From: a virus
IMG/VR virus record: IMGVR_UViG_3300038548_000220
Span: 1-36,361 of that record
Direction: 5' to 3' (one strand)
Length of the DNA: 36,361 bases
A program made the translations under genes and the position numbers. Below are positions 8,021-36,361 of the stretch, one piece after another; position 1 is the stretch's first letter, and every line of letters starts with the position of its first letter. The notes under the pieces are model-generated. The model was given only the letters and a program-made list of their open reading frames with translations. It did not search any database and was not told the DNA's origin.

Positions 8021-8933
8021 GCTCCCCGGTGTCACAGAGCCCCCAGCGCATGCAGCCGTCGCGCTCCGTCTCGTACGACTTGAACATGTCGATCTGCTTT
8101 CCGCCGTAGGATGTGCTCGCCCACGCGACGTACTCGTCGATCGGCATCATCCGCATCCGTCGCCCCTTGTCGATAAACATGGTGGGCGGCTGGTGCCCTT
8201 TCGCCTCGAAGCTGTCGAAGCCCTTGGACTTGTAGCGCTCGAGCGCGATGCGCTGCACGTCTGCTTCCAGTTGGCGGATCTCGTCGATGCGCTCCGGCCA
8301 GTGTTTCGCGATGATCGTGAGTTCGTCCTTGCCGGCGAAAATGCAGGGCGCACAGCCCACCCGCTTCATTCCGTATTTCCAATAGAGCGGATTAGGCGTG
8401 ATACCGTGGCGCTGGTGGATGTCGATCACGTCCTGCAGCGTCCACTCGAGGAGGGGGCGCCACACCCAACAGTCGAACCCCTCCGACCACTCCCAGGGCC
8501 CCGTCTCGTCCGCGAGCTTCCGACGAGCCCGCGACTCCGCAGCACGGATGCCCACGACGTTGATCACGTCGGTGTCGAACGCCTGGAGGTACTTCTTGAT
8601 CGGCTCATGCTTCAGCACATCGGTGCAGAACCTGCCGACGCCGCCGCCAGCGCCGGAGCGGCCCGGGAAGGCCCCTTTCTGGCGACAGAGGTCGGCGAAT
8701 CCCACCTTGGCGCGCACGACGTCGACGGGTCCGATGTGCTCCCGCACGTAGTCGATATAGTTGTCGAAGACGGGATTGTCTTTCGGGTTGAACTCCCACC
8801 CGGTGTCGGCCAGGACGCGCTTGTGCTCGATGCCCTGCTCGGTGAGCCACAGGCTTGTAGCGCCGGAGTCCTTGCCGCCCGACATGCCCAGGACGACGGT
8901 CACGTCGGTGTCATGCGGATCTGGGTGTCCCAT
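8013..8933 (-). CDS. PAPS-reductase-like ATP pyrophosphatase
   Basis: This 306-residue N-type ATP pyrophosphatase has the PP-loop SGGKDS at 18-23, the ADTGWEF segment at 42-48, GIRAAESRAR, then WTLQDVIDIHQRHG and NPLYWKYGMKRVGCAPCIF. These are the hallmarks of the phosphoadenosine-phosphosulfate reductase/DndC-like superfamily. The paired cysteines in GCAPC could hold a cluster or a persulfide. True PAPS reductases carry an ECGLH-type C-terminal cysteine, which is absent, so plain sulfate reduction is unlikely. With a cytosine methyltransferase upstream in the same unit, a role in nucleic-acid modification is an attractive inference. Its start shares a base with the upstream stop. Confidence 0.85.
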   Translation of the reverse strand: MGHPDPHDTDVTVVLGMSGGKDSGATSLWLTEQGIEHKRVLADTGWEFNPKDNPVFDNYIDYVREHIGPVDVVRAKVGFADLCRQKGAFPGRSGAGGGVGRFCTDVLKHEPIKKYLQAFDTDVINVVGIRAAESRARRKLADETGPWEWSEGFDCWVWRPLLEWTLQDVIDIHQRHGITPNPLYWKYGMKRVGCAPCIFAGKDELTIIAKHWPERIDEIRQLEADVQRIALERYKSKGFDSFEAKGHQPPTMFIDKGRRMRMMPIDEYVAWASTSYGGKQIDMFKSYETERDGCMRWGLCDTGELD

Positions 8934-9106
8934 CAGTCAATCCCGCCCCAGTCGCGAGCCTCGTCGGGCTGGTCTTCATCCGGTTCCGCGAAGTCGTCGC
9001 CCGCGTCCTCGTCGAGCTCGCCGGAGCCGCCGCACTTCCGGCACGTCACCTGGTCACGGGATTCGCCGATGCCGTTGCACTCGCTGCAGGTTTCGGGGTC
9101 AGGCAT
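8933..9106 (-). CDS. DnaJ-type zinc-finger mini-protein
   Basis: This 57-residue protein has CSECNGIG at 7-14 and CRKCGGSG at 22-29, two CxxCxGxG repeats as in the DnaJ cysteine-rich domain (half a normal domain, one zinc). The rest is very acidic (about 15 Asp/Glu). The ATG at 9106 overlaps the upstream gene by 8 bases and the stop is TGATG onto the pyrophosphatase. It could be a small adaptor for the enzyme after it; that is inference. Confidence 0.75.
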   Translation of the reverse strand: MPDPETCSECNGIGESRDQVTCRKCGGSGELDEDAGDDFAEPDEDQPDEARDWGGID

Positions 9107-9341
9107 CGGCTTTCCTCTCCGGTCGCGAGCCCTCTGCTGGTACGTGCCCAGTCGGCGAGTTCCCCGCGAAGTGCGGGAAGTGCTCGCGGAGCCACGGGAC
9201 GCCGCCGTAGCGGACGAACCGGCGCCACTGTTCGCGCAGCGTCGATCGCGTCATGCCGGGGCTCTGGGTGTCGGCCTCGACCTGGCAGAGTACGTGCCGG
9301 AGCAGTTCCCACATGTGCGGATCGTCGGCCGGCGGGATCAT
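9099..9341 (-). CDS. Small hypothetical protein after the methyltransferase
   Basis: This 80-residue protein is rich in Trp, His and Arg in the middle (LREQWRRFVRYGGVPWLREH) and has a polar tail. The ATG at 9341 forms ATGA with the methyltransferase stop. No family is recognised. Confidence 0.7.
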   Translation of the reverse strand: MIPPADDPHMWELLRHVLCQVEADTQSPGMTRSTLREQWRRFVRYGGVPWLREHFPHFAGNSPTGHVPAEGSRPERKADA

Positions 9342-10105
9342 GGCGCCCCCACGATCAGGCGACCGATGTGCTCGGCAACCTGCGGAACTACGGCGTTCCC
9401 GAGGGCTCGGACTCGATCAACTCGGTCCACCCCGGCGGAAACCCCATGTACCACTCTAGCCACGTCGGGTTCAGCATTCCACCAACCTGCATCGACAGGG
9501 CTCTCCCACCCTGCGCGTAGGGTTTGCGGCGATGGCCGGTGTCGTCCGCCGTGGCCGTCGTCATCAGCGCCCGACACCCCGGGTGCTTCTGCATCGACGG
9601 GCTCAGTTGGTTGGCTGTGGCTGTGGCCATCATGACGGGCCACGATGAAGATGCGATCGCGGATGTGAGGTGCGCCGATGGCGACCGCTGGAATACAATC
9701 CCACTGCGCATTATACCCGCTCTCGTGAAGGTCTCGCAGGACTCGCCCAAGCCCGTTAGTAGCGAGAGTTGGTACGTTTTCAATGAGCGCGATTCGGGGT
9801 CGTAGTGCGCATAGGACCCGGGCAAACTCGCCCCATAGGCCGCTTTTCTCGCCGTCGATGCCGGCGCCTCGCCCGGCGCGGGAGATGTCCTGGCACGGGA
9901 ACCCCCCGCAGATGATGTCGGGTCGCTCGGTTTCTTCATCGATGTCCCTCACGTCCTCGTAACACGTCACCCCGGGCCAGTGCTTCGCGAGCACGCGCCG
10001 ACAGTACGCGTCGGACTCCGCTTGCCAGATGACCGGACCGAGGCCGGCGCGCTCGAGGCCGAGCTCCAGGCCACCGATGCCGCTGAAAAGGGAGCCGATC
10101 GTCAT
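9338..10105 (-). CDS. C5 cytosine-specific DNA methyltransferase
   Basis: This 255-residue protein starts MTIGSLFSGIGG; the ATG at 10105 forms ATGA with the upstream stop. Motif I is FSGIGGLELGL (7-17), motif IV is GGFPCQDIS with catalytic Cys71, the ENV motif is at 109-111, motif VIII is APHIRDRIF (145-153), and motif X is RALGNAVVPQVAEHIGRLI. It should transfer methyl from SAM to cytosine C5. It is short: the target-recognition region between motifs VIII and X is only about 65 residues and compositionally odd. That region is dual-coding (see 9388-9939). It probably protects phage DNA from host restriction; the target sequence cannot be read from the gene. Confidence 0.92.
   Translation of the reverse strand: MTIGSLFSGIGGLELGLERAGLGPVIWQAESDAYCRRVLAKHWPGVTCYEDVRDIDEETERPDIICGGFPCQDISRAGRGAGIDGEKSGLWGEFARVLCALRPRIALIENVPTLATNGLGRVLRDLHESGYNAQWDCIPAVAIGAPHIRDRIFIVARHDGHSHSQPTEPVDAEAPGVSGADDDGHGGRHRPSPQTLRAGWESPVDAGWWNAEPDVARVVHGVSAGVDRVDRVRALGNAVVPQVAEHIGRLIVGAP
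9388..9939 (-). CDS. Overprinted frame inside the cytosine methyltransferase
   Basis: This second open frame of about 183 residues lies on the same strand inside 9338-10105. It carries features I recognise from proteins annotated with or beside phage cytosine methyltransferases: AGGSRARTSPAPG, SLKTYQLSLLTGLGESCETF, TRAGIMRSGIVFQRSPS, and the ending LNPTWLEWYMGFPPGWTEL. The last resembles the LxPxFVEWMMGLPxGW segment near the end of some methyltransferases. Both frames therefore look protein-like over the same DNA. No good ribosome-binding site precedes the first ATG, so separate translation, a frameshift product or a fossil frame all remain possible. Confidence 0.45.
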   Translation of the reverse strand: MKKPSDPTSSAGGSRARTSPAPGEAPASTARKAAYGASLPGSYAHYDPESRSLKTYQLSLLTGLGESCETFTRAGIMRSGIVFQRSPSAHLTSAIASSSWPVMMATATANQLSPSMQKHPGCRALMTTATADDTGHRRKPYAQGGRALSMQVGGMLNPTWLEWYMGFPPGWTELIESEPSGTP

Positions 10106-10254
10106 CGGCCGATCGCCCGGTTGAACGCTTCCTGCCGGGTCGCGCCCCACGCAACGTGGAGCCGGTCGCCGTCCTCGGTGAGGTGCCATGCGTCCCACCC
10201 GCCGGTCGGGCAGCGCTTGACGTGGAGGCGGGAAACCGTTTCGTTGTTGTCCAT
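10102..10254 (-). CDS. 50-residue protein, first gene of the modification unit
   Basis: This 50-residue protein is mixed alpha/beta in appearance, with HVKRCPTGGWDAWHLTEDGD and GATRQEAFNRAIG, the latter resembling a short helix found in small phage proteins. Its TGA overlaps the methyltransferase ATG (ATGA). The ATG at 10254 is only six bases from the -10 box at 10266-10261, so its mRNA is predicted to be leaderless. The function is unknown. Confidence 0.75.
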   Translation of the reverse strand: MDNNETVSRLHVKRCPTGGWDAWHLTEDGDRLHVAWGATRQEAFNRAIGR

Positions 10255-10260
10255 GCCCTA

Positions 10261-10289
10261 TCAATAGCGCGTCTGTGCGCTATTGTCAA
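10261..10289 (-). promoter_or_regulatory. Promoter with perfect palindromic operator, drives the methyltransferase unit
   Basis: On the minus strand TTGACA (10289-10284) and TATTGA (10266-10261) are exactly 17 bp apart. The DNA 10262-10285 is a perfect inverted repeat: 9-bp arms CAATAGCGC and GCGCTATTG with a 6-bp centre. A repressor bound there would block RNA polymerase. The expected transcript start (about 10254) coincides with the ATG. Confidence 0.85.
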
Positions 10290-10308
10290 ACCCCTTGGTT
10301 TATAGGGT

Positions 10309-10566
10309 TCAGGCGCAGCGAGCGCGGGCCGGGGTCCTGGCTGGCGGGAGGCCGAACCGGTCCCGGAGCTGCTCGATCTCGGTGCGCAACCCGTGGTCGG
10401 CGATCCAGCGCTTGAAAGTCGCATGGTGGACGCCGGCAGCTTCCGCCGCGCCAGTGATCGACCCTCGATGGAGACGCACGAGAGCTACAACCGCCCGGGC
10501 ACCCCGTTTGCGGTCGACCCGGAGCAACTCGCGGACCCCGAGGCGGGCGATGTACTTTTTCCCCAT
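10309..10566 (-). CDS. Small Fis-type helix-turn-helix regulator
   Basis: This 85-residue protein starts MGKKYIARLG at the ATG at 10566. A basic N-terminal helix is followed by VVALVRLHRGSITGAAEAAG, VHHATFKRWIADHGL, which is a clear helix-turn-helix of the Fis/NtrC C-terminal type (helices about residues 32-40, 42-50 and 53-62). Its own promoter (10574-10602) contains the same operator as three others, so it is the best candidate for the factor that binds them, with autoregulation. No effector or dimerisation domain is visible. The 13-residue extension in the longer frame is excluded because transcription should begin at the ATG. Confidence 0.8.
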   Translation of the reverse strand: MGKKYIARLGVRELLRVDRKRGARAVVALVRLHRGSITGAAEAAGVHHATFKRWIADHGLRTEIEQLRDRFGLPPARTPARARCA

Positions 10567-10573
10567 CGGGAGC

Positions 10574-10602
10574 ACGATAGCGCGTCTAAGCGCTGTGATC
10601 AA
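10574..10602 (-). promoter_or_regulatory. Promoter with operator for the HTH regulator gene
   Basis: TTGATC (10602-10597) and TATCGT (10579-10574) are 17 bp apart on the minus strand. The spacer reads ACAGCGCTTAGACGCGC, giving AGCGC-N6-GCGCT at 10579-10594. The ATG at 10566 follows the -10 box by seven bases, so the mRNA is predicted to be leaderless. The element lies in the end of the upstream 46-codon gene. Confidence 0.75.
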
Positions 10603-10726
10603 CCGGGCCGTTTTCCGCTTCCCAGACCTGCTGCTGCAGTGCGTCGACGTCCTCGCTCGTGTACCAGTCGAGTCGATCGGCGTCCCGCATCCGGGCCATG
10701 TAGGAGATGAGTTCGGCGAGGGGCAT
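10586..10726 (-). CDS. 46-residue hypothetical protein
   Basis: This small acidic helical protein starts MPLAELISYMARMRDAD, with the ATG sharing a base with the upstream stop (TGATG). Its last codons contain the -35 box and most of the operator of the regulator promoter. It is the last gene of the late unit. No family is recognised. Confidence 0.65.
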   Translation of the reverse strand: MPLAELISYMARMRDADRLDWYTSEDVDALQQQVWEAENGPVDHSA

Positions 10727-10911
10727 CAGGTGGCGAACGCCGGGACTGTTCGGATCGCCCCGCTCTTCCACAACGCCTGGACGATGCGGGTGCGGGTCAT
10801 GTTGTCGCGCCGGCTGTCCTGCAGTTTGTGCGCTCGGTTCCATTCGGTTCGGTCTTCGGCGGTAGCGGCGTCGGTGAGTTGCCACTTGGCGAGTTGTCGA
10901 CGGTTGTTCAT
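10726..10911 (-). CDS. 61-residue hypothetical protein after the lysin
   Basis: This basic helical protein starts MNNRRQLAKW at an ATG forming ATGA with the endolysin stop. Arg/Lys-rich throughout, with no cysteine and no membrane segment. No family is recognised. Confidence 0.65.
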   Translation of the reverse strand: MNNRRQLAKWQLTDAATAEDRTEWNRAHKLQDSRRDNMTRTRIVQALWKSGAIRTVPAFAT

Positions 10912-11417
10912 GCCGGCATCCTGTAGCCTAGCACGCGGTTTTTCGGATACGCCTTGATGCTCACGGCGTTGCCCTGGTTGCCGCCCAGCAGTCGGATCGT
11001 AGCACCGGAGCCGGGGCCGACGTAGAACGCCACGTGACCCTTGCGCGTGTTGGGGCTGCCGCGCCACAGCACCACAACGCAGCCGGGGGTCGGTGCGTCG
11101 ATAGCGCGGCCCCAGTCCATCCAGGAGCGAGCTCGAGCGCTGTCGGTGCCCTTCAGGCCGGCTTGTTCGATGCACCAGTTGACGAAGCTGCTGCACCAGG
11201 GGGTCTCGTCGTCGTCGGCGCTCAGGCCCGTTGTTGAGTGGTACTCGACCACCCGGGGGTTGTGCTCACTGCCGGGGATCTCCCGTGTGCCCAGTTCCGC
11301 ATTCGCGACCACGTACCACGCCGGGATCTCATGGGAGTCGGCCGGCGCCGCGTCGTCGAGCAGCGCGATCACGTCGTCGCGGATCTCCTCGAGTCGAATT
11401 CGCTCTGCGGGGGTCAT
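10908..11417 (-). CDS. Endolysin, NlpC/P60-CHAP-type amidase
   Basis: This 169-residue cysteine peptidase has TPWCSSFVNWCIEQAG with candidate nucleophile Cys75, then a conserved glycine strand (PGCVVVLWRG), then GHVAFYVG with His128 and GGNQGN at 146-150. The order matches the small TIGR02594-type phage/secreted cell-wall peptidases. It should cleave peptide bonds in peptidoglycan at lysis. No signal peptide is seen, so it needs a holin; the membrane protein two genes upstream is the candidate. The start forms ATGA with the preceding gene. Confidence 0.88.
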   Translation of the reverse strand: MTPAERIRLEEIRDDVIALLDDAAPADSHEIPAWYVVANAELGTREIPGSEHNPRVVEYHSTTGLSADDDETPWCSSFVNWCIEQAGLKGTDSARARSWMDWGRAIDAPTPGCVVVLWRGSPNTRKGHVAFYVGPGSGATIRLLGGNQGNAVSIKAYPKNRVLGYRMPA

Positions 11418-11695
11418 CGGGAGCGATTACACCACGAGCGGAAACGTCCCGCAAGCCCCAGCGCCCACGAGAGGGCCGGGGTCCAGAGTCGACGCAGACG
11501 TCCGAGCCAGGTCGGCGCCGGGGAGGGGGGGGCGGCAGCGAGGAGGGCGCGGGCTTCTGGGGCCGTGATGTCCCCGGCCTTTAGGGCGCTCCGGACGGCC
11601 GCCACGCCGTGGCCATGCTGGCGAGCTCGACGGGCCGCTCCCGCTAGGTCGTGCTGCAGCTTGTGGGTCCGCCTCCGGGCGGCTCGGTTCGTCAC
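11414..11695 (-). CDS. Small basic protein in the lysis cassette
   Basis: This 93-residue protein has an Arg/His-rich N-terminal half and an amphipathic, Trp-containing C-terminal half (WLGRLRRLWTPALSWALGLAG) that could associate with the membrane. It sits between the holin-like gene and the endolysin with 4-base overlaps on both sides. It might be a lysis accessory factor; nothing more specific is visible. Confidence 0.7.
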   Translation of the reverse strand: MTNRAARRRTHKLQHDLAGAARRARQHGHGVAAVRSALKAGDITAPEARALLAAAPPSPAPTWLGRLRRLWTPALSWALGLAGRFRSWCNRSR

Positions 11696-12219
11696 TCGAC
11701 GACGGGCGCGACGCAGATCAGCGCGACGAGATCGAGCCCATCGAACTCCGGCAGGTTCAGGTCCACGCTCGGCGCCTCGAAGCAGACCGCGCCCGCCTCG
11801 TCGATCGTCACGTTCCGCTTCTCAGCTTCGGCCCGGAGCGCCGCCTTCGCGGCCGGCAGCAGGAGTTCACGTGCAATCGTCGCGCCGGTCTGCAGCGCGG
11901 CCGGCGAGCAGCCGAACAGGATCGCCGTCAGTCCGATCGCCACCGCGAGCTTTTTCCCGAACCCGAGCAGTACCCCGGTCGCGGTGCCGGTACCGCCCAG
12001 CTTGCGAGCCAGCCCCGCCAGTCCGGCGACGCCGACGAAGATTCCAGCAGTCCACTCGGGGGGGAACTTGTCGAGCACGGTCAGCAACGTAGCGCAGGCG
12101 ACGATGAACCAGTCGGTCCAGGCGTCGAGCTTCATCTTGGTGCGGCTCGGCGTGAGCGAGTTCGACTTTCGAATCTCGACGGGCGGAACGGGGGGCTCGC
12201 CTGGTGACTCGTCCGTCAT
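11692..12219 (-). CDS. Holin-like membrane protein with internal lipobox-like segment
   Basis: This 175-residue protein starts MTDESPGEP (ATGA with upstream stop). It has a polar proline-rich N-terminus, a first hydrophobic segment (about 33-47, WTDWFIVACATLLTVL), a second (about 57-73, WTAGIFVGVAGLAGL), then KKLAVAIGLTAILFGCSPAA, which looks like a lipoprotein signal with lipobox ILFGC, followed by a helical soluble domain of about 70 residues. The first part fits a holin and the second an outer-membrane spanin-type lipoprotein. An internal GTG at the lipoprotein segment might give a separate product. Position two genes before the endolysin supports a lysis role. Confidence 0.6.
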   Translation of the reverse strand: MTDESPGEPPVPPVEIRKSNSLTPSRTKMKLDAWTDWFIVACATLLTVLDKFPPEWTAGIFVGVAGLAGLARKLGGTGTATGVLLGFGKKLAVAIGLTAILFGCSPAALQTGATIARELLLPAAKAALRAEAEKRNVTIDEAGAVCFEAPSVDLNLPEFDGLDLVALICVAPVVE

Positions 12220-12461
12220 CGTATCCTCTTCCTCTTCGGGGGGCCGTAGTCGCACTTACCCTTGGCATTTCTCCGGGTCGGACCGAGCGACACGTTGAGC
12301 TTAGCTACCGTGGTTCCATCGGGCTTGTGAACTCTCAGGTTATAGGTCCCGTCCGGGTTTTGGGTTGCGATTTCCGCCTCCCACTCTTCGCCGTAAGCAG
12401 AGCCGGGGGCGGCGAGTTTGACCGTATCGATCTCTTCGTCGGTTGGGAAATAGGCAATCAT
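12216..12461 (-). CDS. Small beta-rich protein between tail and lysis genes
   Basis: This 81-residue protein includes WEAEIATQNPDGTYNLRVHK, DGTTVAKLNVSLG, which suggests a small SH3-like beta barrel, followed by a very basic tail (KRKRIR). The start shares a base with the stop of the lectin-like gene. It may be a virion or tail-fiber accessory; not assigned. Confidence 0.7.
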   Translation of the reverse strand: MIAYFPTDEEIDTVKLAAPGSAYGEEWEAEIATQNPDGTYNLRVHKPDGTTVAKLNVSLGPTRRNAKGKCDYGPPKRKRIR

Positions 12462-13411
12462 CAGAACCCGATCGCCCTCTTCGCTAGTTGCAAAATATTG
12501 CCCTCTGTTAACTCGGTATCGTAGAGCACGGCGCTCAGTATCCCGCCGATCAACGGTAGCGCTCCGGTATTGCCCTCTTCACCCAAACTAAACTTGTTAC
12601 TCGCGCCCCCGCCCCCGCTGGGACCGTTCGCAAACGTGTTCTCTCCGACCTTCACACCCTGAATGAAAAGCTTGACCGTGCGGCCGTTGGCGCTCCGGGT
12701 GAAGGCGAGATGCTGTGGGATGCCGAGTATGATGCCGCCGGCCTGAAACTGGTTATTGATTCCGGCTCCGTGCTCATGCCCGTACAGTAGCTGGCCTTGG
12801 AAGATTTCAAACGCGTAAGTAAAGTTGGCAGATTCCGCGCCCCCGGGACCGTTCCAGGCGACTAGAAACTGCTGGCTCGTGATCGACGGCATAACGACGC
12901 ACGCAAACGCCATGCCCGCGATGAGGTTTAGATCAGCGTTGAGCTGATCCATCCGCTCGCTTTGATTAACCCAGCTTTGGAACCCGGCCCCGTGTCCCGA
13001 TCCAATCCGGGGGGTCCCGATAGCTGTGAGATCGTACGGCCCACCCGCGTCGCCGGCCGTATCTAGCAGGCTTATCGCCTGCGCCCCGTCGTCTTGTAGT
13101 TGCCACAAGCCGATCGGGTTGAAGATAGTGTTGTGGAGCTGCGGAGCGATGGCGGCAACGCCAGACACGCCGATCGGGCCCACCCAGTTGGCGAGGCCGG
13201 TGCCGGTCGACTTCGTGAGGTAGAGCCCCGGCTCGGCTCCGGCGGTCTGCTGGATCGCGCTGATCATGTCCGCCGCCGCGATCGTCACGAGAGCTCGCGC
13301 GGTTTCGTCTACGACGTCCGCAAAGCGCTGCAGGACGTGAACCCCCTTCGTGATATCGTCGACCCCATCGCCGGGGTTCATGTCGCCGTGCTGTTTTGGA
13401 TCTGTGGACAT
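12461..13411 (-). CDS. Lectin-like (concanavalin-A/LamG fold) tail protein
   Basis: This 316-residue protein has an N-terminal part (1-90) with a helical region resembling a tail-attachment segment. The C-terminal half then reads as a jelly-roll lectin: GLWQLQDDGAQAISLLDTAG, FACVVMPSI, FEIFQGQLLYGHEH, HLAFTRSANGRTVKLFIQG, and the closing ALPLIGGILSAVLYDTELT. The LamG-like pattern suggests binding of host-surface glycans, so it is a candidate receptor-binding protein. The ATG at 13411 directly follows the TAG of the small gene upstream. Confidence 0.75.
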   Translation of the reverse strand: MSTDPKQHGDMNPGDGVDDITKGVHVLQRFADVVDETARALVTIAAADMISAIQQTAGAEPGLYLTKSTGTGLANWVGPIGVSGVAAIAPQLHNTIFNPIGLWQLQDDGAQAISLLDTAGDAGGPYDLTAIGTPRIGSGHGAGFQSWVNQSERMDQLNADLNLIAGMAFACVVMPSITSQQFLVAWNGPGGAESANFTYAFEIFQGQLLYGHEHGAGINNQFQAGGIILGIPQHLAFTRSANGRTVKLFIQGVKVGENTFANGPSGGGGASNKFSLGEEGNTGALPLIGGILSAVLYDTELTEGNILQLAKRAIGF

Positions 13412-13585
13412 CTACGGGCTTCCGTGAATGACGTCGCCCTCTGCGGAGCCGTGAACCACAGCCGCAGCGGTTGAGCCGTGCACCACCTGGCCCACGAGCA
13501 CGGGCGGCCCACCCGTCGACGTAACCGGAGGGGTCCCGCGTGCGTTACGACGCATGCCGTACCCTGCACCGCGCCGATCGTTCAT
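13412..13585 (-). CDS. Tiny tail protein with HGS repeats
   Basis: This 57-residue protein has an N-terminal basic tag with RRNARGTPP, then VVHGS, VVHGS and VIHGS spaced 8-9 residues apart, a pattern of short beta repeats. The ATG at 13585 overlaps the upstream stop (ATGA). The same RRNARGxP tag is found in the protein encoded at 14738-14917, also followed by short repeats. It is probably a small tail-tip or decoration component, by location. Confidence 0.7.
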   Translation of the reverse strand: MNDRRGAGYGMRRNARGTPPVTSTGGPPVLVGQVVHGSTAAAVVHGSAEGDVIHGSP

Positions 13586-13977
13586 CGGTCATCCACCACG
13601 GCAGCGATAGCGGCTCGAGTGGCCGCCGCATCGATCGAGGTCTTGAACGTGTCGCCGGAGTCGTTGTGGGCCGTGACCGCTGCGGCCGTGTACAGGTCGC
13701 GGATGATGAGCTGCCGCGTACGCTCATCGATCACGGCCTTGGCTTCGGTCTTCAGTACGGCGATCGGATCGAAGGCGGTCTTGTGCGCGGCCACCACGGC
13801 ATCGAGGGCCGGCTCGTCAGAAACGTCGCGCTCGAACGTCACCGTGATGTCCGACAGCGACCTTGAAACCGTGAACGCTTCGCCGGGGAAAGCGGCCTCG
13901 ATCTCACCCGAAAGCGCTCGCGCGTCGATGTCATATTTCCCGTCGACTACAGCGCTAGAGTAGGTGTGCTCGGCCAT
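13582..13977 (-). CDS. Small tail-region protein
   Basis: This 131-residue protein has an N-terminal alpha/beta part (IEAAFPGEAFTVSRSLSDIT, VTFERDV) and a helical C-terminal half. Start shares a base with the upstream stop. It lies between a fiber-like protein and the lectin-like protein, suggesting a tail or chaperone function; no family is recognised. Confidence 0.7.
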   Translation of the reverse strand: MAEHTYSSAVVDGKYDIDARALSGEIEAAFPGEAFTVSRSLSDITVTFERDVSDEPALDAVVAAHKTAFDPIAVLKTEAKAVIDERTRQLIIRDLYTAAAVTAHNDSGDTFKTSIDAAATRAAIAAVVDDR

Positions 13978-15251: not shown

Positions 15252-17494
15252 TATTCGGCTCCTATGCTCTGTTGCTCTCGTTGTCGTCGCATCGCGTTCG
15301 CGATCGTAAACCTCATGGCCCGGATGTTCCCAGCCTCCGCTGCTGCTTTTACCGCACCCGACTGCTCGCCGAAAGCCTCCGGGTCTGCTTCGAGCAGTTG
15401 CAGGACACGTTGGACCTCCGGATCAGACTGCGGTCCCTGCTGCCCAAAGGCCCCGGGGTCCGGGCTCTCCTGCGGTTGTTGTGGGGGCTGTTGCGGCTGT
15501 CCCTCGATCGGAGGGGGCGGGAATGCGGGGGGTGGTGCGGGGCCGGGCTCGAAGTCGGGTGTCTCCACTCCCTCGAATCCCGCCGTGGTGCCGGCCGCGA
15601 CTCCGGCCATTCGTCCACCGGCAGCAGTGAAACCGGGAGCACCGGCGGCAGCACGCGCGCCGTATCGTTGGGCAGCGGCGAGCATCCCGGGGGCGTACCG
15701 ACGGGCCGCCTCCGCTGTGGCGAACGTCGCGACGGCGGTCGGGATGCCCTCACCACCCACGCCATGCGCGATACCGCCCGCGCCCACGGCCGCGAGTGTA
15801 CTGGTGCGCGAGCTCGAGCCGGCGTCGCCGTGCATCTTGACCCACATCGCCGCCTCGTATTGTTCATTCGCTGCCCGGAGCGGCTTCGCGAACTGCGGCG
15901 CCTCTTCCTCGATCGCGTCACCGATCGATCGGCGCAGCGTCCTGCCGATATCGCGGAACATGTCGGCGTGTTGCTTCTGCATCGCATCGCCGGTCCGGGG
16001 GCTCCACGCCTGCGAGTCCACGTACTGCCGGAGGTTGTGCGCATCGACGTAGCTCGTCTCGAACGGCCGATCGACCATCGCCATCACTTCATCCGCCCTC
16101 GTCTGCGCGGCCGACCAGATCTCGTCGACCTGGTTCATGATCTCCGCCTCGGGCGTCTCGAGTTGGCGCCCGGCTTCGATCGCGTCGTTCTGCTCTCTCG
16201 TCGCGCGCGTCAGAATCGCGTCGGCCTTGTGCTCCGCCTTCGCGGTCGTGAGCGGCGTCTTACCCCGGCTGACCGTGCGGGTCGCGTAGTTGTCCGCCCG
16301 CGTTTCCATCTGCTGCGCGATCGCGATTGCGTCCGGATCGCCCATCGAATCCGCCCGGACCTTTTTCGCGCCGTCACGGAGTCGCTTGATCGTCGGGCCG
16401 AGATCGACCCGCGCCCCCCGACCCCCCATGGACCCGTGGATCTGCGCGATCTGTTCGCCCGCGCTCTCCGCGACCTCCGGAGCGTTTCGCATATACGTCG
16501 TCTTGTAAGCCACCGGGCCCGCGCCGGCCATGCCGGTCTCCTCGACCACTTCGCCCATGCGCACCATCTTCGGGACGCCCTTTTCCTTCACGAGTCGACG
16601 GATCCAGCGGCCGTAGGGTAGCTGGCCGGTAGCAGCAGAGAGCCGGAATCGGGACGCGCCCTCTCGAAGCGCATCCTCCGCGAGCCCTAGCGTGCGGCCC
16701 CCACCCTCGAGCGCGAGCGGGAACGCGGCGCCGATCGCCATGTGCTCCGCGACTTCCACCGGGTCGCCCGTATGGGCCGCCTGGGCGCCACTGAACGCCC
16801 CGGAGCCGATAACGGCGCGGCCCAGGCTCTGGAGCGCGCCCTCACCCGCCACGGGAGCCATGCGGAGCCCGGCGTAGAGGGCGGCCGGCCCCTGTCCCGC
16901 GAGGTAGCCGACCCCGGTGCGGATCGGCTCGTCCGCGATCGACTCCTGGTACTCCCGCGCCTCTGATTCTGCGATCGAGCCGCCGAGAGTTGTCCCGATC
17001 GGACGGTCCGGATCTGTCGAACGCCCTCCGCCGAACTCACGGGGCGGCAGGCCGGGCTCGTCGACCGGGTGCATGAACTCCATCGCCTCCTGAATGCCGC
17101 CAACGATCTGCGGCGCGATCTTCGGCGCAACACCGAACGTCGACCCCAACGCGACGCCCCGAACCTCTGGCGGTACGCCGGTCCCGAGACCCTTCGCCAG
17201 ATCCTGCTTCACCCAATCGTACGCGCGCGCGAACACATTGGGCTCTCCCGGCACCGCTTCGGGCTCGGCGACGACCTCCGGAGTAGGTGGAACGGCCGGG
17301 GACGGCTGCGCTGGCGGCTCATCGACGAAAGGGGGCGACTCTGCCGCCGCTGGTGCAGCCTCACCACGGGACGGGCGTATCCCCGTCCGTTCCTCTTTCT
17401 CCGGGACGGGACCGGTGTGGGACTCCCACGTCTCGCCGTCGTCCCACGAAACCTGGACCCCGGAAATCTTGCCCTTTCGGTAGCGCTCGGGCAT
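15251..17494 (-). CDS. Large internal virion/ejection protein (C)
   Basis: This 747-residue protein starts MPERYRKGK (TGATG with the previous gene). N-terminal 100 residues are Pro/Glu-rich. A region at about 200-260 is hydrophobic and glycine-rich (GYLAGQGPAALYAGLRMAPV). A long helical centre (about 330-560) follows, then glycine/alanine-rich segments (about 570-650), a Pro/Gln-rich stretch and a final helical domain. This layout fits the pore-forming and periplasm-spanning ejection proteins of short-tailed phages. No lytic transglycosylase motif is evident. Assignment rests on position after the tail hub and on composition. Confidence 0.65.
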   Translation of the reverse strand: MPERYRKGKISGVQVSWDDGETWESHTGPVPEKEERTGIRPSRGEAAPAAAESPPFVDEPPAQPSPAVPPTPEVVAEPEAVPGEPNVFARAYDWVKQDLAKGLGTGVPPEVRGVALGSTFGVAPKIAPQIVGGIQEAMEFMHPVDEPGLPPREFGGGRSTDPDRPIGTTLGGSIAESEAREYQESIADEPIRTGVGYLAGQGPAALYAGLRMAPVAGEGALQSLGRAVIGSGAFSGAQAAHTGDPVEVAEHMAIGAAFPLALEGGGRTLGLAEDALREGASRFRLSAATGQLPYGRWIRRLVKEKGVPKMVRMGEVVEETGMAGAGPVAYKTTYMRNAPEVAESAGEQIAQIHGSMGGRGARVDLGPTIKRLRDGAKKVRADSMGDPDAIAIAQQMETRADNYATRTVSRGKTPLTTAKAEHKADAILTRATREQNDAIEAGRQLETPEAEIMNQVDEIWSAAQTRADEVMAMVDRPFETSYVDAHNLRQYVDSQAWSPRTGDAMQKQHADMFRDIGRTLRRSIGDAIEEEAPQFAKPLRAANEQYEAAMWVKMHGDAGSSSRTSTLAAVGAGGIAHGVGGEGIPTAVATFATAEAARRYAPGMLAAAQRYGARAAAGAPGFTAAGGRMAGVAAGTTAGFEGVETPDFEPGPAPPPAFPPPPIEGQPQQPPQQPQESPDPGAFGQQGPQSDPEVQRVLQLLEADPEAFGEQSGAVKAAAEAGNIRAMRFTIANAMRRQREQQSIGAE

Positions 17495-29732: not shown

Positions 29733-31283
29733 CTATCGGCCTCCCCGCTTCCAGCGCGGGCGCTTCGCGATCGTCGAGCTCAACGCCTTGGCCGCTGGGC
29801 TCGCCGGGCTGTGGATGATCGCACGCTGCAACGTGGGGTCGAGGATGTGGTCCGGCGGTCGGGCCATCCGTTCGCGATCGACATGCCGTACAAGGTACCT
29901 GAGCGCGTCTATGAGGTCAAAATGCCCATATTCCTCGCTCCGCAGGTAGTCTGTACGCTTGTCGTTCCACTGCCCCTCGATCAAATGCTCGATCAGCAAC
30001 GCGCCCCCCACAGCGTCGATCTCGATCCGATCGTTGAAGAACCACTGGCGCAGGTTGAACAGGCTCGCCTCCTTTGAGTCGTTCTTGTCGGCCGGCTGCA
30101 CGTTGATGTCGTGATCGATCTGCAGGTCGGCGAGCATCCGGAGGTCGGTGTCGCTGACTCGGAAGTAGGGGGCGGGGCGGATCGATGTGCCGTCCCACCA
30201 CCGGGTCCCCTTGCGCCCGTTCTCTTCGTCGACCCCCCACAGCTTCTGCTCGGTGCCGGTCCACACTGCCGCCACCTGTGACGTTCCTGCGTTGCGCTCC
30301 GCCCATGACGACTGGACGCACAGCTTCTGCCGCTCCGCATCCCAGAACGCCCACACGAGCCCGCACAAGTCACGAATCCCGGGGTCGGCCGCGACGTACG
30401 TATCGGCCCACTCGGGTGACGGGATGTGCTTGACGACGTGCCGGGCTTCGTCGAACTCCGGTACCAGCATCGTCTTCGCTTCCCTGACCCGCTCGCCGTA
30501 GTACTCGCGCCGCGCCGTCGGGTGCTCCCTGCCTCCTGCCGCATCGATGAACTCGTCGCGCTCGTCCTGGTCGAGCAGCGGGTTGTCGTCGATGGTCCGG
30601 AAGACGTACGCGCCCCGCTTCTTAGCGTCCTTACAGAACACCGTGTCGTAGGGATGGTGGGGCGTCTCGGGTGCGGTCGACTGTAGGATCATCCGCGCGC
30701 GTGGCCGTCCCTGGAACTGCGGGTACAGCACACCCACCACGCCCTTTTCCAGCTTCGTGCAGTACGCGGCCTCGGTGACGACAACCCCGTCACTCCCGCG
30801 CCCGCGCAGGCCGTTCGGGTTCTTGTCGATGCCGACCAGCTTGATCACCGAACCGTTCGGGAAGTAGTAGCCCTGCGTCTGGCCCATCTTGGTTGTTTGG
30901 TAGACAGGGCGAATGTCATCGGGGCAGTCGAGCTCGAGGATCTCGTCGGCCAACGGGATCACGATCTCCCCGATGTCCTTCTGAAACGCCGTCGCGTACG
31001 TGATGATCGAGCCCGGGTACTTCTGCGCGTCCTCGAGCTTGATCGTGAAGCACAGCCGGTCCTTCCCGTAGCGGCGCGCGCAATCCATGACGAAGATGCG
31101 CCGGTACAACCCAGCGGTGCCCGGGCCCTTCTTTTCCCACACGCGGTACCGGCGATAGACGTCCGCTTGATCGCCGTGCAGGGTCCAGAACAACTGCCCG
31201 GCTCGCCACAGTATCTCGCGTTCTTCAGGTTCGACGAGATGGGTTGCGGTGCGCCAGGGCAGCGGCTCTGCGGGTTCGGTCAC
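29733..31283 (-). CDS. terL: Terminase large subunit
   Basis: This 516-residue protein starts at a GTG that overlaps the upstream TGA (GTGA). ATPase domain: Walker-A-like DCARRYGKDRL at 67-77, adenine/coupling segments, and the Walker-B-like VVVTEAAY at 167-174, then an ILQSTA motif III-like segment. Nuclease domain: YVAADPG with Asp300, and HFDLIDALRYL near 460. The protein pumps DNA into the prohead and cuts it. The P-loop ends GKD rather than GKS/T, and the Walker-B position before Glu is Thr; both are tolerated in distant terminase families. Confidence 0.92.
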   Translation of the reverse strand: MTEPAEPLPWRTATHLVEPEEREILWRAGQLFWTLHGDQADVYRRYRVWEKKGPGTAGLYRRIFVMDCARRYGKDRLCFTIKLEDAQKYPGSIITYATAFQKDIGEIVIPLADEILELDCPDDIRPVYQTTKMGQTQGYYFPNGSVIKLVGIDKNPNGLRGRGSDGVVVTEAAYCTKLEKGVVGVLYPQFQGRPRARMILQSTAPETPHHPYDTVFCKDAKKRGAYVFRTIDDNPLLDQDERDEFIDAAGGREHPTARREYYGERVREAKTMLVPEFDEARHVVKHIPSPEWADTYVAADPGIRDLCGLVWAFWDAERQKLCVQSSWAERNAGTSQVAAVWTGTEQKLWGVDEENGRKGTRWWDGTSIRPAPYFRVSDTDLRMLADLQIDHDINVQPADKNDSKEASLFNLRQWFFNDRIEIDAVGGALLIEHLIEGQWNDKRTDYLRSEEYGHFDLIDALRYLVRHVDRERMARPPDHILDPTLQRAIIHSPASPAAKALSSTIAKRPRWKRGGR

Positions 31284-31635: not shown

Positions 31636-32439
31636 TCACAGCCCCCGTGTGATTGCCGTGAAGCCCGCCGCGTTCTTGTGGCCCCCGCCCCCGTGCGCCG
31701 TCGCGATCTCCGACACGTCGAAGTCACCGATTGAGCGCAGCGAGTACTGGTAGAGCCCGTCTTGACGGAACCACCAACCCACAGCGAAGCCGTCGTTGCG
31801 TTCAGCGATGTGGTGCAGGAGGTCCGAAATCATGACCTGGGGCGCGTTGACTATCGGCACGTTCTCTCGCCCGCCGAAGTTTCTGCGGTACACGTTCGCC
31901 TCCATGGCGTGGCAGTAGGCGTTGATCTTCATCATCACCGCTTGACCACCGCGAACCGCGCCGCTCAGGTCCGACCCGCAGAGTTCGTCCCACGTGTCGA
32001 GGTCGTACGGGTGCGCCATCACGTACGCGGCGACCGCCTTGCTATCCGGGAGCGCCCAGCGCCACAGGTCGCGGTCCTCCATGTAGTCGATCAGCCACGG
32101 GCGTTTCTGGCCGCCCGACAACTCGTCCCACGTGATGCCGGCGCCGCTGCGCTCCATGTCGAACGTGCAGAAGTCGAGCCCCTCGAGCTCGGCCTCCGCT
32201 GTCTTGTGATGGTCGAGGACTCGAAGCGAGCGCGCCTCGGAGTGCAACCGCAGCAACACCTCGCGCTTGTAGCTGAAGTCGACGATCCACACGTCGCGGT
32301 CCGTCACGTCGGGCGGGTCGGCCCCGTAGTATCCCGGGAACAGTTCGCAGTCTCCGGGCAGGTGCAGTTGGGCAGCCCACGCGGCCGTGAAGCCGTCCGG
32401 GCACGCGGCGTGATAGATGATTAGGTTCTTCTCGCCCAT
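31636..32439 (-). CDS. DHH/DHHA1-family phosphoesterase
   Basis: This 267-residue protein has the signature order of DHH enzymes: HAACPDGFTAAW at 10-21 (DxD-like first metal site reads as CPDG), VDFSY at 53-57, LDHHK at 75-79, an EDRD motif in the middle, and the C-terminal DHHA1 glycine motif GGGGHKNAAGF. It should be a Mn-dependent phosphodiesterase acting on short nucleic acids, cyclic dinucleotides or polyphosphate-like substrates. Its location in the packaging block is unusual. ATG at 32439 shares a base with the upstream stop (TGATG). Confidence 0.85.
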   Translation of the reverse strand: MGEKNLIIYHAACPDGFTAAWAAQLHLPGDCELFPGYYGADPPDVTDRDVWIVDFSYKREVLLRLHSEARSLRVLDHHKTAEAELEGLDFCTFDMERSGAGITWDELSGGQKRPWLIDYMEDRDLWRWALPDSKAVAAYVMAHPYDLDTWDELCGSDLSGAVRGGQAVMMKINAYCHAMEANVYRRNFGGRENVPIVNAPQVMISDLLHHIAERNDGFAVGWWFRQDGLYQYSLRSIGDFDVSEIATAHGGGGHKNAAGFTAITRGL

Positions 32440-32861
32440 CACGCCGTCGCGCTGTCTTCGGCGCCGTTGCTCTCACGGTCCGCGACGCGCTGTGCGATCC
32501 AGTCATACGAAAGGTTCGCATCGCAGTCCTGGCACAGCATGCCGGCCTTGTCGCTGATGTGCTTCAGACGCTCCTCGGGATGCTCGCACTCCGGCACCGG
32601 TCGCGGGTCCGGGTCGTCCTCGAAATACTCTTGGAACTTCTCGTCCTCCATGAGGTGTAGCCGCCCATGGTCCAACACGATCCACTGCCCGAGCTTGCCC
32701 GGTGTGCCGCCCGGCATGTCGCGGAAGTGCGTCTCTCTCTTGTGCGGGTCGAGCAACACGCCGTCCGGTACGTCAACGTCGGTATAGCTGTCGTCAAACC
32801 AGCCCTCGACGATCTGCGCTGCGTCAAGCTTCCGTCTCTCGCGCTCTCGGATCGGTTTCAT
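32439..32861 (-). CDS. Hypothetical protein with C-terminal CxxC
   Basis: This 140-residue protein is acidic and beta-rich in the middle (GQWIVLDHGRLHLMEDEKFQ). Near the C-terminus it has CEHPEER and LCQDCDANLSYDWI, so Cys92, His94 and the CQDC pair could bind zinc. Starts with ATGA. No family is recognised. Confidence 0.75.
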   Translation of the reverse strand: MKPIRERERRKLDAAQIVEGWFDDSYTDVDVPDGVLLDPHKRETHFRDMPGGTPGKLGQWIVLDHGRLHLMEDEKFQEYFEDDPDPRPVPECEHPEERLKHISDKAGMLCQDCDANLSYDWIAQRVADRESNGAEDSATA

Positions 32862-33105: not shown

Positions 33106-33636
33106 TCACGCTTCTGGCCTACCGCGTCCGTTGCCGCCGTTCAAGCCCCTGCCATTCATCCCGAACGCCAGCAGCCGATCCATCACCTGCTGCGCAACCT
33201 CTTCGGTCCGGTCGTCGACCTGAGCCGGCACCTGATCGCCGAGCGGCAACCCGGGGGCATCCTGTCGGCCCAGCCCGCACAGCTCCGACTCGAGTTTGAG
33301 CGCGCCGAGCGCCGCCGTGTACTTCCCCTCCGCGTACGCTGCCTCGAACAGCGCCTGCACCTTGGGGAGAATCTTCGTCCTCGCCTTGCCGGGCGTTCCG
33401 AACGCCTGCGCCCGATAGTGCCACAGCATGTTGACCGCCTTGATCAATCGCCGGGCCCGCCGCTCACCGACCTGGCACCCGTTCATGATGTCCTGCAGTC
33501 GGTCGCCGCTGTTGACGGTCTTCACCATCGCGCGTTCCGTGATCGCGAGGTGCTTCACGAGTTCGCGCGTGCTGACCTCTCGCTGGTTCCGCACCCCGGG
33601 GGCGTCGTCGGACTTCGCTGGTTCGTTCTCCCTCAT
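33106..33636 (-). CDS. Probable terminase small subunit
   Basis: This 176-residue protein has a central helix-turn-helix-like part (RLQDIMNGCQVGERRARRLI), then a helical region with KVQALFEAAYAEGKYTAALG, ALKLESELCGLG. This tail resembles the YxxALxAxKLxxEL segment found in small terminases of short-tailed phages. Flexible Gly/Asn/Arg-rich C-terminus. It is upstream of the large terminase, although four genes lie between. It would recognise the packaging site; that is inferred. Confidence 0.6.
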   Translation of the reverse strand: MRENEPAKSDDAPGVRNQREVSTRELVKHLAITERAMVKTVNSGDRLQDIMNGCQVGERRARRLIKAVNMLWHYRAQAFGTPGKARTKILPKVQALFEAAYAEGKYTAALGALKLESELCGLGRQDAPGLPLGDQVPAQVDDRTEEVAQQVMDRLLAFGMNGRGLNGGNGRGRPEA

Positions 33637-34034
33637 TGGTACTTGCGCTTGTAGATATCGCCGATGCTCGGGTACAGCAACGGGAAGGGTGTGCTGTCTT
33701 CGCTACGCGTCACGCCGTGGTTCGGGTTCAGGTAGACCGGTTGGCTGTAGTGTCTCGCCGCGCACTCGCTGGCGTTGCGCCTCGACATCTCTTTGTAGCT
33801 CACGAGCGCGCCACAGTTCCCGCATTCAAACCCTGCGTGCTCCGCAGCCGCGTGCATCGAGGCCCCGCAGTTCGGACAACCGAAGAATGTTGAGCCCTTC
33901 GGGTTCCCGAGGTCGATGGCCGGCGGACTGTACCCCGGGCGCTTCGTCACGAACGGCTCGGCCTTTGCCAGCGACACCGGGATCGCCGCAAGCGGGACGC
34001 CGAACAGAACCTTCAGCAGCGTGCGCCGCTTCAT
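33633..34034 (-). CDS. Exported zinc-ribbon protein
   Basis: This 133-residue protein starts MKRRTLLKVLFGVPLAAIP, a basic n-region with twin arginines, then a hydrophobic core and an AKA-type signal peptidase site near residue 25. The mature part has CPNCG (about 50-54) and CGNCG (about 71-75), a four-cysteine zinc ribbon with a His between, then a Tyr/Asn-rich tail. The ATG at 34034 shares a base with the upstream stop. The twin-arginine-like signal suggests export, possibly folded with its metal. Such a protein among head genes is unexpected. Confidence 0.75.
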   Translation of the reverse strand: MKRRTLLKVLFGVPLAAIPVSLAKAEPFVTKRPGYSPPAIDLGNPKGSTFFGCPNCGASMHAAAEHAGFECGNCGALVSYKEMSRRNASECAARHYSQPVYLNPNHGVTRSEDSTPFPLLYPSIGDIYKRKYQ

Positions 34035-34732
34035 CAGGCCCAGCGCAACGTCAGGATACCGCTCAGCACCCGGATGCACAGCGGGACCGAACGGCCGCCC
34101 AGCACGCGCAGGAAGGTCGACGGCACGACGTTCTCGGTCGACTCGTCCCAATGCTCCGCGACGTTCACCGGTGCCGTGATCTTGTCGCCCAGGAACGTCG
34201 AGACGAGACAGTCCGGGGTCAGTCGGGCGAGCGGGACCCGCTCCACGACCCGCACCTCCTCGGGGAGCTTGATATCGGTCCTGCTCTTCAGCGCCTTCAG
34301 GGTGCCGTGCTGGACAAGCACGAAGTGGATCTTCCCGTCCTCCGTCCTGGGCGCTGGGGCGGGGCGTCGGGGCGGGGGGAAGTCATCCTGGGGCCGCACG
34401 TACCTCGGGACCGGGGGCGGGGGGGCCTCGATCTCCGCAATCGGCACCTCTACCGGGGCCGGGGCCGCCGTGGGGGCCGGAAGTGTTTCACGTGAAACAG
34501 GAGGCGGGGGTGGGTCCATGGGCGGGGCGCCTCCGGCCGGCGCAGTGTGCCGCGCGTTCTCTATCTCCTCCATCGTCGGGGGCGGCTCCGGGGGGTCGAC
34601 GTGCATATTCGAGCCCTGGGAGCCGTCGGGGTTCGTCGGGTGCTCGCCAGCGTTCAGGCCATAGTCGGCCTCGGATACCTTGGGGTCGCCCGCCTGCGTG
34701 TCGCCGGTCGCCGGGGTGTTGTCGCCTGTCAT
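34034..34732 (-). CDS. Proline-rich protein containing parS in its gene
   Basis: This 232-residue protein has an N-terminal half that is disordered and proline-rich (PPPPP, PAPTAAPAPVEVP). The C-terminal 100 residues are ordered-looking beta/alpha (KIHFVLVQHGTLKALKSRTD, VVERVPLARLTPDCLVSTFL). The codons for VSRET at about residue 78-82 form the perfect parS site at 34484-34499. ATG overlaps the upstream stop (ATGA). Possible virion or assembly protein; no family recognised. Confidence 0.75.
   Translation of the reverse strand: MTGDNTPATGDTQAGDPKVSEADYGLNAGEHPTNPDGSQGSNMHVDPPEPPPTMEEIENARHTAPAGGAPPMDPPPPPVSRETLPAPTAAPAPVEVPIAEIEAPPPPVPRYVRPQDDFPPPRRPAPAPRTEDGKIHFVLVQHGTLKALKSRTDIKLPEEVRVVERVPLARLTPDCLVSTFLGDKITAPVNVAEHWDESTENVVPSTFLRVLGGRSVPLCIRVLSGILTLRWA
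34484..34499. promoter_or_regulatory. Perfect 16-bp parS site
   Basis: TGTTTCACGTGAAACA is a perfect palindrome and equals the consensus binding site of chromosomal ParB/Spo0J proteins. It sits in the proline-rich, compositionally free part of a coding region, encoding VSRET. It is the only copy in the window. No parA or parB gene is visible, so a host ParB would have to bind it. Confidence 0.9.
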
Positions 34733-35070
34733 CGTCGAATCCCTCCGAGGGTCATGCTGCGGGGCTGCTGCGTCTTCTGCGTCACGAGCCGGGACATCTT
34801 GCCGTCGAGCTCGGTCGCGTTCTCGTCCAACGTCTGGACGTCACGGCGGATTGCCACGAGCGCCTTGTCGTACTTCGTCTCGAGGTCGCGGCGCGCGAGT
34901 TCGGTCGTCATCTTGAGGTCCGCGAAGTCCGCCGCTGCTCGCTCCTCGATCCCTGTCAGCCGTTCGTTCTCGGTCAGCTTCCGGAGCTGCAGCGCGAAAA
35001 ACCGTCGAGAGACGTCCCACGCAACCACGGCGAAAACGAACAGAGAAACGGCGATCGCGTACTGACTCAT
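34729..35070 (-). CDS. Membrane-anchored coiled-coil protein, first gene of the late unit
   Basis: This 113-residue protein starts MSQYAIAVSLFVFAVVAWDV, an N-terminal membrane anchor (about 4-18), followed by a long charged helical region (about 25-100, ENERLTGIEERAAADFADLK and KALVAIRRDVQTLDENATEL) that should form a coiled coil. The ATG lies eight bases after the -10 box at 35084-35079, predicting a leaderless mRNA. This excludes the much longer frame reaching 35337. Could act as a spanin-like or membrane organiser; unassigned. Confidence 0.8.
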   Translation of the reverse strand: MSQYAIAVSLFVFAVVAWDVSRRFFALQLRKLTENERLTGIEERAAADFADLKMTTELARRDLETKYDKALVAIRRDVQTLDENATELDGKMSRLVTQKTQQPRSMTLGGIRR

Positions 35071-35078
35071 GAGGTTGC

Positions 35079-35109
35079 AGTATAGCGCGTGTGCGTGCGC
35101 GACTGTCAA
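35079..35109 (-). promoter_or_regulatory. Promoter with operator half-sites, drives packaging and structural genes
   Basis: TTGACA (35109-35104) and TATACT (35084-35079) are near-consensus, with a 19-bp spacer on the minus strand. The spacer has CGCGC-N8-GCGCT; half-sites match those of the other three promoters, but the centre is two bases longer, like the spacer itself. It fills the only gap (35 bp) between the HNH gene and the late genes. Confidence 0.75.
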
Positions 35110-35375
35110 CCCGGTCCGTGGGCCTGCAAAACCTGCCGATTCTGCCACCAGGTGAGTTCCTCCCGAGTCCAGCCTTTGAACATTCCGGCGAGCGCATGGA
35201 AGTCGGTGTGGCACAGATCGCAGAGCGGCATCGTCCTGTCGTCCGGGTTCTTCTGACCCTTCCCCTTTCCCATCCCGGTCTGGTGATGCGCACGAGTCGG
35301 GGCGTATTCGGTGGGGTGCCGGCCACACGCGCAACACGGGAGCGCCCGAACTTTCGCGAGCACCTTGGCGGTCAT
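35106..35375 (-). CDS. HNH-type nuclease-like protein
   Basis: This 89-residue protein starts MTAKVLAKVRALPCCACGRH (ATGA with upstream stop). It has CxxC (CCACG), the HH pair in RAHHQTGMGKGKGQKNPDDR, and PLCDLCHTDFHA, the layout of small phage HNH proteins of the DUF968 kind (zinc-holding cysteines, catalytic His-Asn-His-like residues). It would nick or cut DNA, perhaps in recombination. The -35 box of the late promoter overlaps its last codons. Confidence 0.8.
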   Translation of the reverse strand: MTAKVLAKVRALPCCACGRHPTEYAPTRAHHQTGMGKGKGQKNPDDRTMPLCDLCHTDFHALAGMFKGWTREELTWWQNRQVLQAHGPG

Positions 35376-35972: not shown

Positions 35973-36361
35973 CGTCGCTCTCCTCTCGCGAAGGCTGCCC
36001 CGAGCTTCTGAAGCGCCGCGCCGACCGCGACCGAGACCTCGTGTACATCCTCGTCCGGTACCTCTGCCGGGAGCAGCACGTAGACGGTGTACTTCCCTTC
36101 GCAGATTTCCTTGCTGACAACCTCCGCGTCGGGGGCGGGGGCGTGACGTAGCTTCGGGGCGTCTGGATGAAACTCGCGGTCAACGGGGTTCCACCCGCAC
36201 CGCACACACAAATCCTTGGGGCCGATAACGCACGACTCCCCCCACAGTTCGCCGCACCGCTTACGCTGGCACCGTCCATCATCCGTACTGGGGGCGGGGT
36301 GGTCACACACGAAGTCATCTGTCACTGGAGCAAATCCATCGCACTTCGGGCAGCCACTCAG
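35969..36361 (-). CDS. Cysteine-rich zinc-finger-like protein, 3' part (gene split by contig ends)
   Basis: This is the rest of the gene that starts at 286. Bases 36235-36361 duplicate 1-127. The visible C-terminal region has CVRCGWNP and a final alpha/beta segment (YTVYVLLPAEVPDEDVHEVS then an amphipathic helix). The stop overlaps the next start (ATGA at 35972). Reading it alone from the GTG at 36325 gives 118 residues and is probably wrong. Confidence 0.85.
   Translation of the reverse strand: MSGCPKCDGFAPVTDDFVCDHPAPSTDDGRCQRKRCGELWGESCVIGPKDLCVRCGWNPVDREFHPDAPKLRHAPAPDAEVVSKEICEGKYTVYVLLPAEVPDEDVHEVSVAVGAALQKLGAAFARGERR
36235..36361. repeat. Terminal direct repeat, right copy
   Basis: Identical to 1-127 (see left copy). 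Removing one copy gives a circle of 36,234 bp. Confidence 0.95.

Follow-up and report, generated by a model that had tools for sequence, protein, structure and literature searches.

A perfect parS site of the chromosomal type was found in a phage genome in which searches for ParA and ParB genes returned no match. The window, that is, the whole stretch of 36,361 nt analyzed here, contains the 16-bp palindrome TGTTTCACGTGAAACA at positions 34484-34499. This palindrome is very probably a loading site for host ParB, and we are confident, although short of certainty, that it would bind host ParB in vivo. The best explanation overall would be a borrowed centromere, a loading site for host ParB (Spo0J) in a phage devoid of ParA and ParB, to which we give about an even chance. 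Among bacterial centromere systems, ParB-parS is the best conserved. The usual view is that phages either bring their own partition system or need none.

The parS site in the window

The palindrome agrees with the chromosomal-type ParB/Spo0J consensus at 16 of 16 positions, confirming the perfect match claimed in an earlier note on this DNA. It is the sole match with three or fewer mismatches on either strand of the window. The expected number of such matches is 0.01, based on dinucleotide shuffles of the window, and that of exact copies is 1.9e-6 under a first-order model.

The site lies in a minus-strand ORF (34034-34732), which encodes the 232-aa protein P0001. In this frame, it is read as ...DPPPPP-VSRET-LPAPTAAP... 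within a proline-rich N-terminal linker. The C-terminal part of P0001 is homologous to proteins from two related phages, G001 and G002, and the linker is missing in both. The codons for VSRET are GTT, TCA, CGT, GAA, and ACA, each of which is a minority choice in the phage. Under the codon usage of the phage, the probability of writing VSRET with these five codons is 1.2e-5; GC3 is ~0.83 phage-wide and 0.87 in the parS-bearing gene. Because the homologues have no linker and the codons are avoided ones, neither the peptide nor codon habit accounts for the parS word. The unusual thing at 34484-34499 is a DNA word, not a peptide. The earlier proposal that the linker is free and that protein constraint offers no explanation is thus borne out.

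The genome appears complete. Positions 1-127 are identical to positions 36235-36361; with this exact direct terminal repeat, the record closes on itself at ~36,234 bp (~36.2 kb). Though it is classed as linear, the record has the appearance of a whole genome closed into a circle, and the 127-bp overlap resembles the one that assemblers usually leave in such genomes. The apparent completeness makes the absence of ParA and ParB more telling. A phmmer search of every ORF of at least 45 aa in the window with Spo0J and Soj revealed nothing at E < 10. The same scan did recover the ParB gene of another contig, L079. Profile searches of the window with PF02195, phrog_620, and PF13614 also gave no ParB or ParA match. 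The profile search of the whole genome is limited in sensitivity, as phrog_2 missed the TerL of the window itself, which was found by hmmscan; the phmmer scan of ORFs is therefore the better evidence. Together, these searches uphold the earlier statement that no ParA or ParB is visible. No integrase was found in the window by hmmscan or profile searches, and there is no sign of a temperate phage. Genes for a repressor or a replication initiator were likewise not recognized, and most of the early genes match no family.

The site is located in the region of packaging genes. A promoter-like element, TTGACA-N19-TATACT (35079-35109, minus strand), occurs once in the window, 580 bp upstream of parS, and it is situated between an HNH gene and the packaging genes. 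The closest relative likewise has a single copy in the homologous location (L123, 3751-3781, plus strand), in which the hexamers are conserved and the spacer has diverged. The 19-bp spacer is unusually long, and a promoter scan with spacers of 16-18 misses the element. The element is presumed to drive the packaging and late genes, in line with the closeness of parS to a late promoter that had been suggested before. The first gene after it (34729-35070, minus strand, start predicted from the sequence) encodes a small membrane/coiled-coil protein. On the other side, there is a gene for an HNH-like (DUF968) protein (35106-35375, minus strand, start likewise predicted). The gene at 33106-33636 (minus strand), which is 55% conserved in G001, probably encodes the small terminase, judging from its position before terL. 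The large terminase gene, terL, is at 29733-31283 (minus strand), and parS is 3.2 kb upstream of its start. The region between these two terminase genes contains a gene for a DHH phosphoesterase (31636-32442, minus strand). Its best named relatives are in large Caulobacter and Brevundimonas phages, and G001 has no counterpart at this place.

Relatives of the phage and their sites

A TerL search with the single protein yielded no relative, an MCP search yielded one close relative, and TerL alignments yielded more. The closest relative is G001 (L123), 37.3 kb in length, whose MCP, portal, and TerL are 82%, 73%, and 69% identical to those of the window. More distant are G002 (L130; TerL 50%) and twelve relatives at TerL identities of 28-37%. 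A search of genome contigs found neither a relative nor a host. In INPHARED, the sole match to TerL is a Silvanigrella phage at 26%. The RecE matches there are mostly from actinobacterial phages, and the DHH phosphoesterase matches include Caulobacter and Brevundimonas phages among others.

G001 holds exactly one near-parS site, TGTTCCACGTGAAACA, at L123:3455-3470. It fits 5'-TGTTNCACGTGAAACA, the parS consensus quoted for Bacillus (PMC2346475), with N = C. The expected numbers in G001 are 4.4e-4 for a site with at most one mismatch and 2.2e-5 for the word TGTTCCACGTGAAACA itself. The two sites occupy non-homologous positions. The window carries its site within the P0001 linker, 580 bp downstream of the promoter-like element. 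The G001 site falls at the start of the HNH gene, which is two genes farther upstream, and lies 281 bp upstream of the element. Both are thus less than 600 bp from the same conserved element and in the same gene block. Being displaced, the sites point to retention of the word rather than of a protein segment that both phages share. G002 and the twelve distant relatives, at TerL identities of 28-50%, have no site within two mismatches. Within the phage's own family, therefore, two genomes carry the site, which is displaced in the nearest relative and absent from distant ones. The earlier note had regarded the lack or decay of the site in related phages as evidence against a function. There is no decay in the nearest relative, which keeps a displaced site, but the lack is observed at the larger distances.

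G001 differs from the window in another respect. Upstream of its terL, at L123 1283-2846 (~28.9-30.5 kb of G001), it encodes a ParB-like protein of phrog_620 beside a TET-associated glycosyltransferase (PF20691). This region is probably a DNA hypermodification locus of the ParB-Tls type. The locus is absent from the window, including the ParB-like gene upstream of terL by which such loci are recognized.

Orphan parS in other viral contigs

The perfect 16-mer is present in at least 120 IMG/VR contigs, compared with 20 contigs in a complete scan for a control palindrome of the same composition with a central CpG. The 18-mer consisting of parS and a CC flank is also present in at least 120 contigs, and only nine of the first 120 parS contigs contain it. 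A primase-like motif, HxYW..EPVSRETW, holds the parS word in 30 of the 111 contigs that the CC-flank scan added. The IMG/VR excess was not taken wholly at face value, since part of it is protein-driven via this primase-like VSRETW family. The family was observed in L091, L108, L180, L188, L211, and others, where the DNA word may be either selected or a consequence of the peptide. When primase-like contigs are left out, dividing 88 contigs by ~6% puts the number of parS contigs at well above 1,000, compared with 20 for the control; we made this extrapolation ourselves, and it is an approximate, rough lower estimate. Viral contigs have a strong excess of orphan parS. The 231 parS contigs fall into 121 blastn clusters.

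Near-sites with one or two mismatches gather near the perfect sites: 28 were found in 1.05 Mb, and each of five control palindromes gave 0-1. The complement of TGTTCCACGTGAAACA makes up half of the near-sites at the parS-bearing viral loci (14/28), more than any other variant. There is a preference for A at flank positions -1 and -2 of viral parS. Among 48 long parS contigs, 44 have no PF02195 or phrog_620 match, and four have a ParB_N or ParB-like match. An integrase was found in nine of the 48, and a TerL belonging to one PHROG in 20. Contamination by host chromosomes was rejected, as no parAB genes are near the sites except in L079 and as the TerL of one family recurs in those 20 contigs. 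Of 89 parS words in long ORFs, 82 are read in the VSRET frame, and they often encode part of a low-complexity linker, in proteins that are unrelated to one another; the window shows the same arrangement.

In a group of ~35 related marine contigs, parS usually precedes terL, by widely varying distances of 27 bp to 4 kb; short contigs are numerous in this group, and their length favors closeness between parS and terL. Some sites of the group are in a downstream gene, and some sites lie 1.7-5.4 kb downstream of the terL start. The shifting distances fit a pattern of turnover under selection. A second group (L016, L043, and their kin) has arrays of up to five perfect parS sites near the terL start. 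A position adjacent to terL was considered as a rule for all phage parS sites; it is true for the marine and array groups, but it fails in 20 other contigs.

Larger arrays were also observed. L086 (IMGVR_UViG_3300037518_000322), a 117-kb contig with TerL and an integrase and with no ParB found, has a centromere-like array of 12 parS-like sites at 8906-13863, mostly TGTTTCACGTGGAACA, ~0.2-1 kb apart. L115, a contig of 65% GC with TerL and with no ParB found, has six parS-like sites in 2.3 kb (117-2390).

Possible roles of the site

We infer ParB binding and every later step of the following scheme. Host chromosomal ParB (Spo0J) would load on the phage 16-mer as ParB-CTP clamps, and the clamps would slide outward across the neighboring late and packaging region. 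The phage genome would then be handled like the origin region of the host chromosome; that is, it would be condensed, positioned, and split between daughters by host ParA and SMC. As parS is ~600 bp or less from the packaging promoter, the ParB cluster may in addition hold back late transcription at a stage when genome copies are few. Chromosomal ParB is a CTP clamp which loads at parS, slides outwards, and recruits ParA and SMC (PMC7053999, PMC8494293). One parS on an unstable plasmid stabilizes the plasmid via host Soj/Spo0J (PMC2346475), and the island SGI1 is a proven case of parS mimics being used to borrow a plasmid ParABS (PMC10954446). With these two precedents, a borrowed centromere is the simplest reading. 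A second reading, a copy-sensitive ParB brake on late genes, is made possible by the short distance between site and packaging promoter in both genomes.

The chances are balanced that the main benefit to the phage would be partition, positioning, or condensation. We infer that the borrowed centromere comes first among the benefits and late-gene control second. Against the centromere, there is no gene pointing to a plasmid-like or lysogenic state, where partition would obviously pay. Use of host ParB had been proposed before in three forms, partition, late-gene silencing, and ParB titration, which cannot be distinguished by sequence alone. The displaced site in G001 and the excess of orphan parS support a binding site for host ParB well, and the lack of the site in distant relatives speaks against it.

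It is possible, though rather unlikely, that parS is a copy-number timer and not a centromere. Host ParB spreading from parS would silence the packaging and late promoter early in infection; replicating phage copies would then titrate ParB, spreading would fail, and the late genes would be switched on. Such a switch is consistent with the location of the site less than 600 bp from the sole TTGACA-N19-TATACT in both genomes, once downstream and once upstream, as either-side placement is expected of side-independent spreading. The position upstream of terL in most of the ~35 marine contigs points in the same direction. ParB represses promoters adjoining parS3 and parS4 in P. aeruginosa (PMC5521831, PMC7022226), and KorB, a relative of ParB, silences at long range (PMC11790492). 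The 20 long contigs with detected TerL, however, show no general closeness between parS and terL, and the sites downstream of the terL start speak against a switch of this kind. In addition, ParB effects on chromosomal transcription are often small.

The occurrence of the matched palindrome in 20 IMG/VR contigs indicates that some perfect matches are accidental, and the wider phage family has no site. That the site in the window is such a chance word or a functionless relic is nevertheless improbable. The nearest relative has an independent near-perfect site in the same block (~4e-4 per contig, and less for the block), the codons used are avoided ones, and the IMG/VR excess over the control is large. 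It is more improbable still that the reader of parS is a ParB-like protein of the ParB-Tls type, encoded by the phage and marking DNA at packaging. A role in guiding modification during packaging has been put forward for such loci (PMC6536676), and the phrog_620 protein of G001 (1e-30), beside its TET-associated glycosyltransferase, is encoded ~1.5 kb from the G001 parS. But this protein has no Pfam match, and thus no recognized parS-reading helix-turn-helix domain; the apparently complete window has no such gene, and ParB-like genes are present in only four of the 48 other parS contigs. The least probable account is a decoy, in which many phage copies would sequester host ParB, and the phage would gain from the resulting disturbance of chromosome segregation or SMC loading. 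Phage copies could outnumber the chromosomal sites, and some contigs have arrays of up to 12 parS-like sites, e.g., L086. In the window phage and its relative, by contrast, there is one site each, and ParB is dispensable in many bacteria.

The borrowed centromere can be compared with several known systems. The 16 bp in the window are identical to the parS of chromosomal ParABS (Soj/Spo0J), and the variant in the relative fits TGTTNCACGTGAAACA (PMC2346475), although here the site is in a phage without parA and parB and is not near a chromosomal oriC. SGI1 is, like the window, a mobile element without cognate ParAB carrying the parS of another replicon (PMC10954446). It borrows the system of a plasmid (IncC) with two sites, whereas the window has one site, in a coding linker, and is proposed to use the system of the host chromosome. 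The use of ParB by SGI1 is backed by binding and stability tests. Phage-plasmids with ParABS, such as P1 and cluster A mycobacteriophages, also have a parS-type centromere on the phage genome, but they encode their own ParA and ParB and have parS sequences of their own; the ParA and ParB of a complete module were not found in the window. ParB-Tls loci share the terminase-adjacent neighborhood, and G001 has such a gene (PMC6536676). They differ in the ParB-like gene, which the window does not have, and the literature on them describes proteins, not parS sites.

Already known are parS, ParB, parS mimicry, phages that encode a full ParABS, and ParB-like genes beside terL (PMC6536676). No report of a host chromosomal parS in ParB-less phages was found in the open-access literature searched. 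We lean slightly toward the view that an orphan host parS is a common, unrecognized strategy of ParB-less tailed phages. The DNA word would be selected while its position turns over, often as VSRET in disordered linkers, and it would recruit host ParB and SMC for partition or late-gene timing. If ParB-less phages routinely carry a host parS, host ParB and SMC would be host factors of phages, and the effect of a ParB clamp on a phage genome would become a testable question. Metagenomic phages could then be searched directly for parS, and where metagenomes are the sole source of a phage, the site would be a hint, readable from sequence, of an extrachromosomal or carrier-state life. Among cultivated phages, the Pelagibacter phage HTVC027P (MN698241), an isolate on HTCC1062, has the 14-bp parS core CGTTTCACGTGAAACA at 16412-16427, in an intergenic gap near terS, and it provides a cultivable test case for orphan parS.
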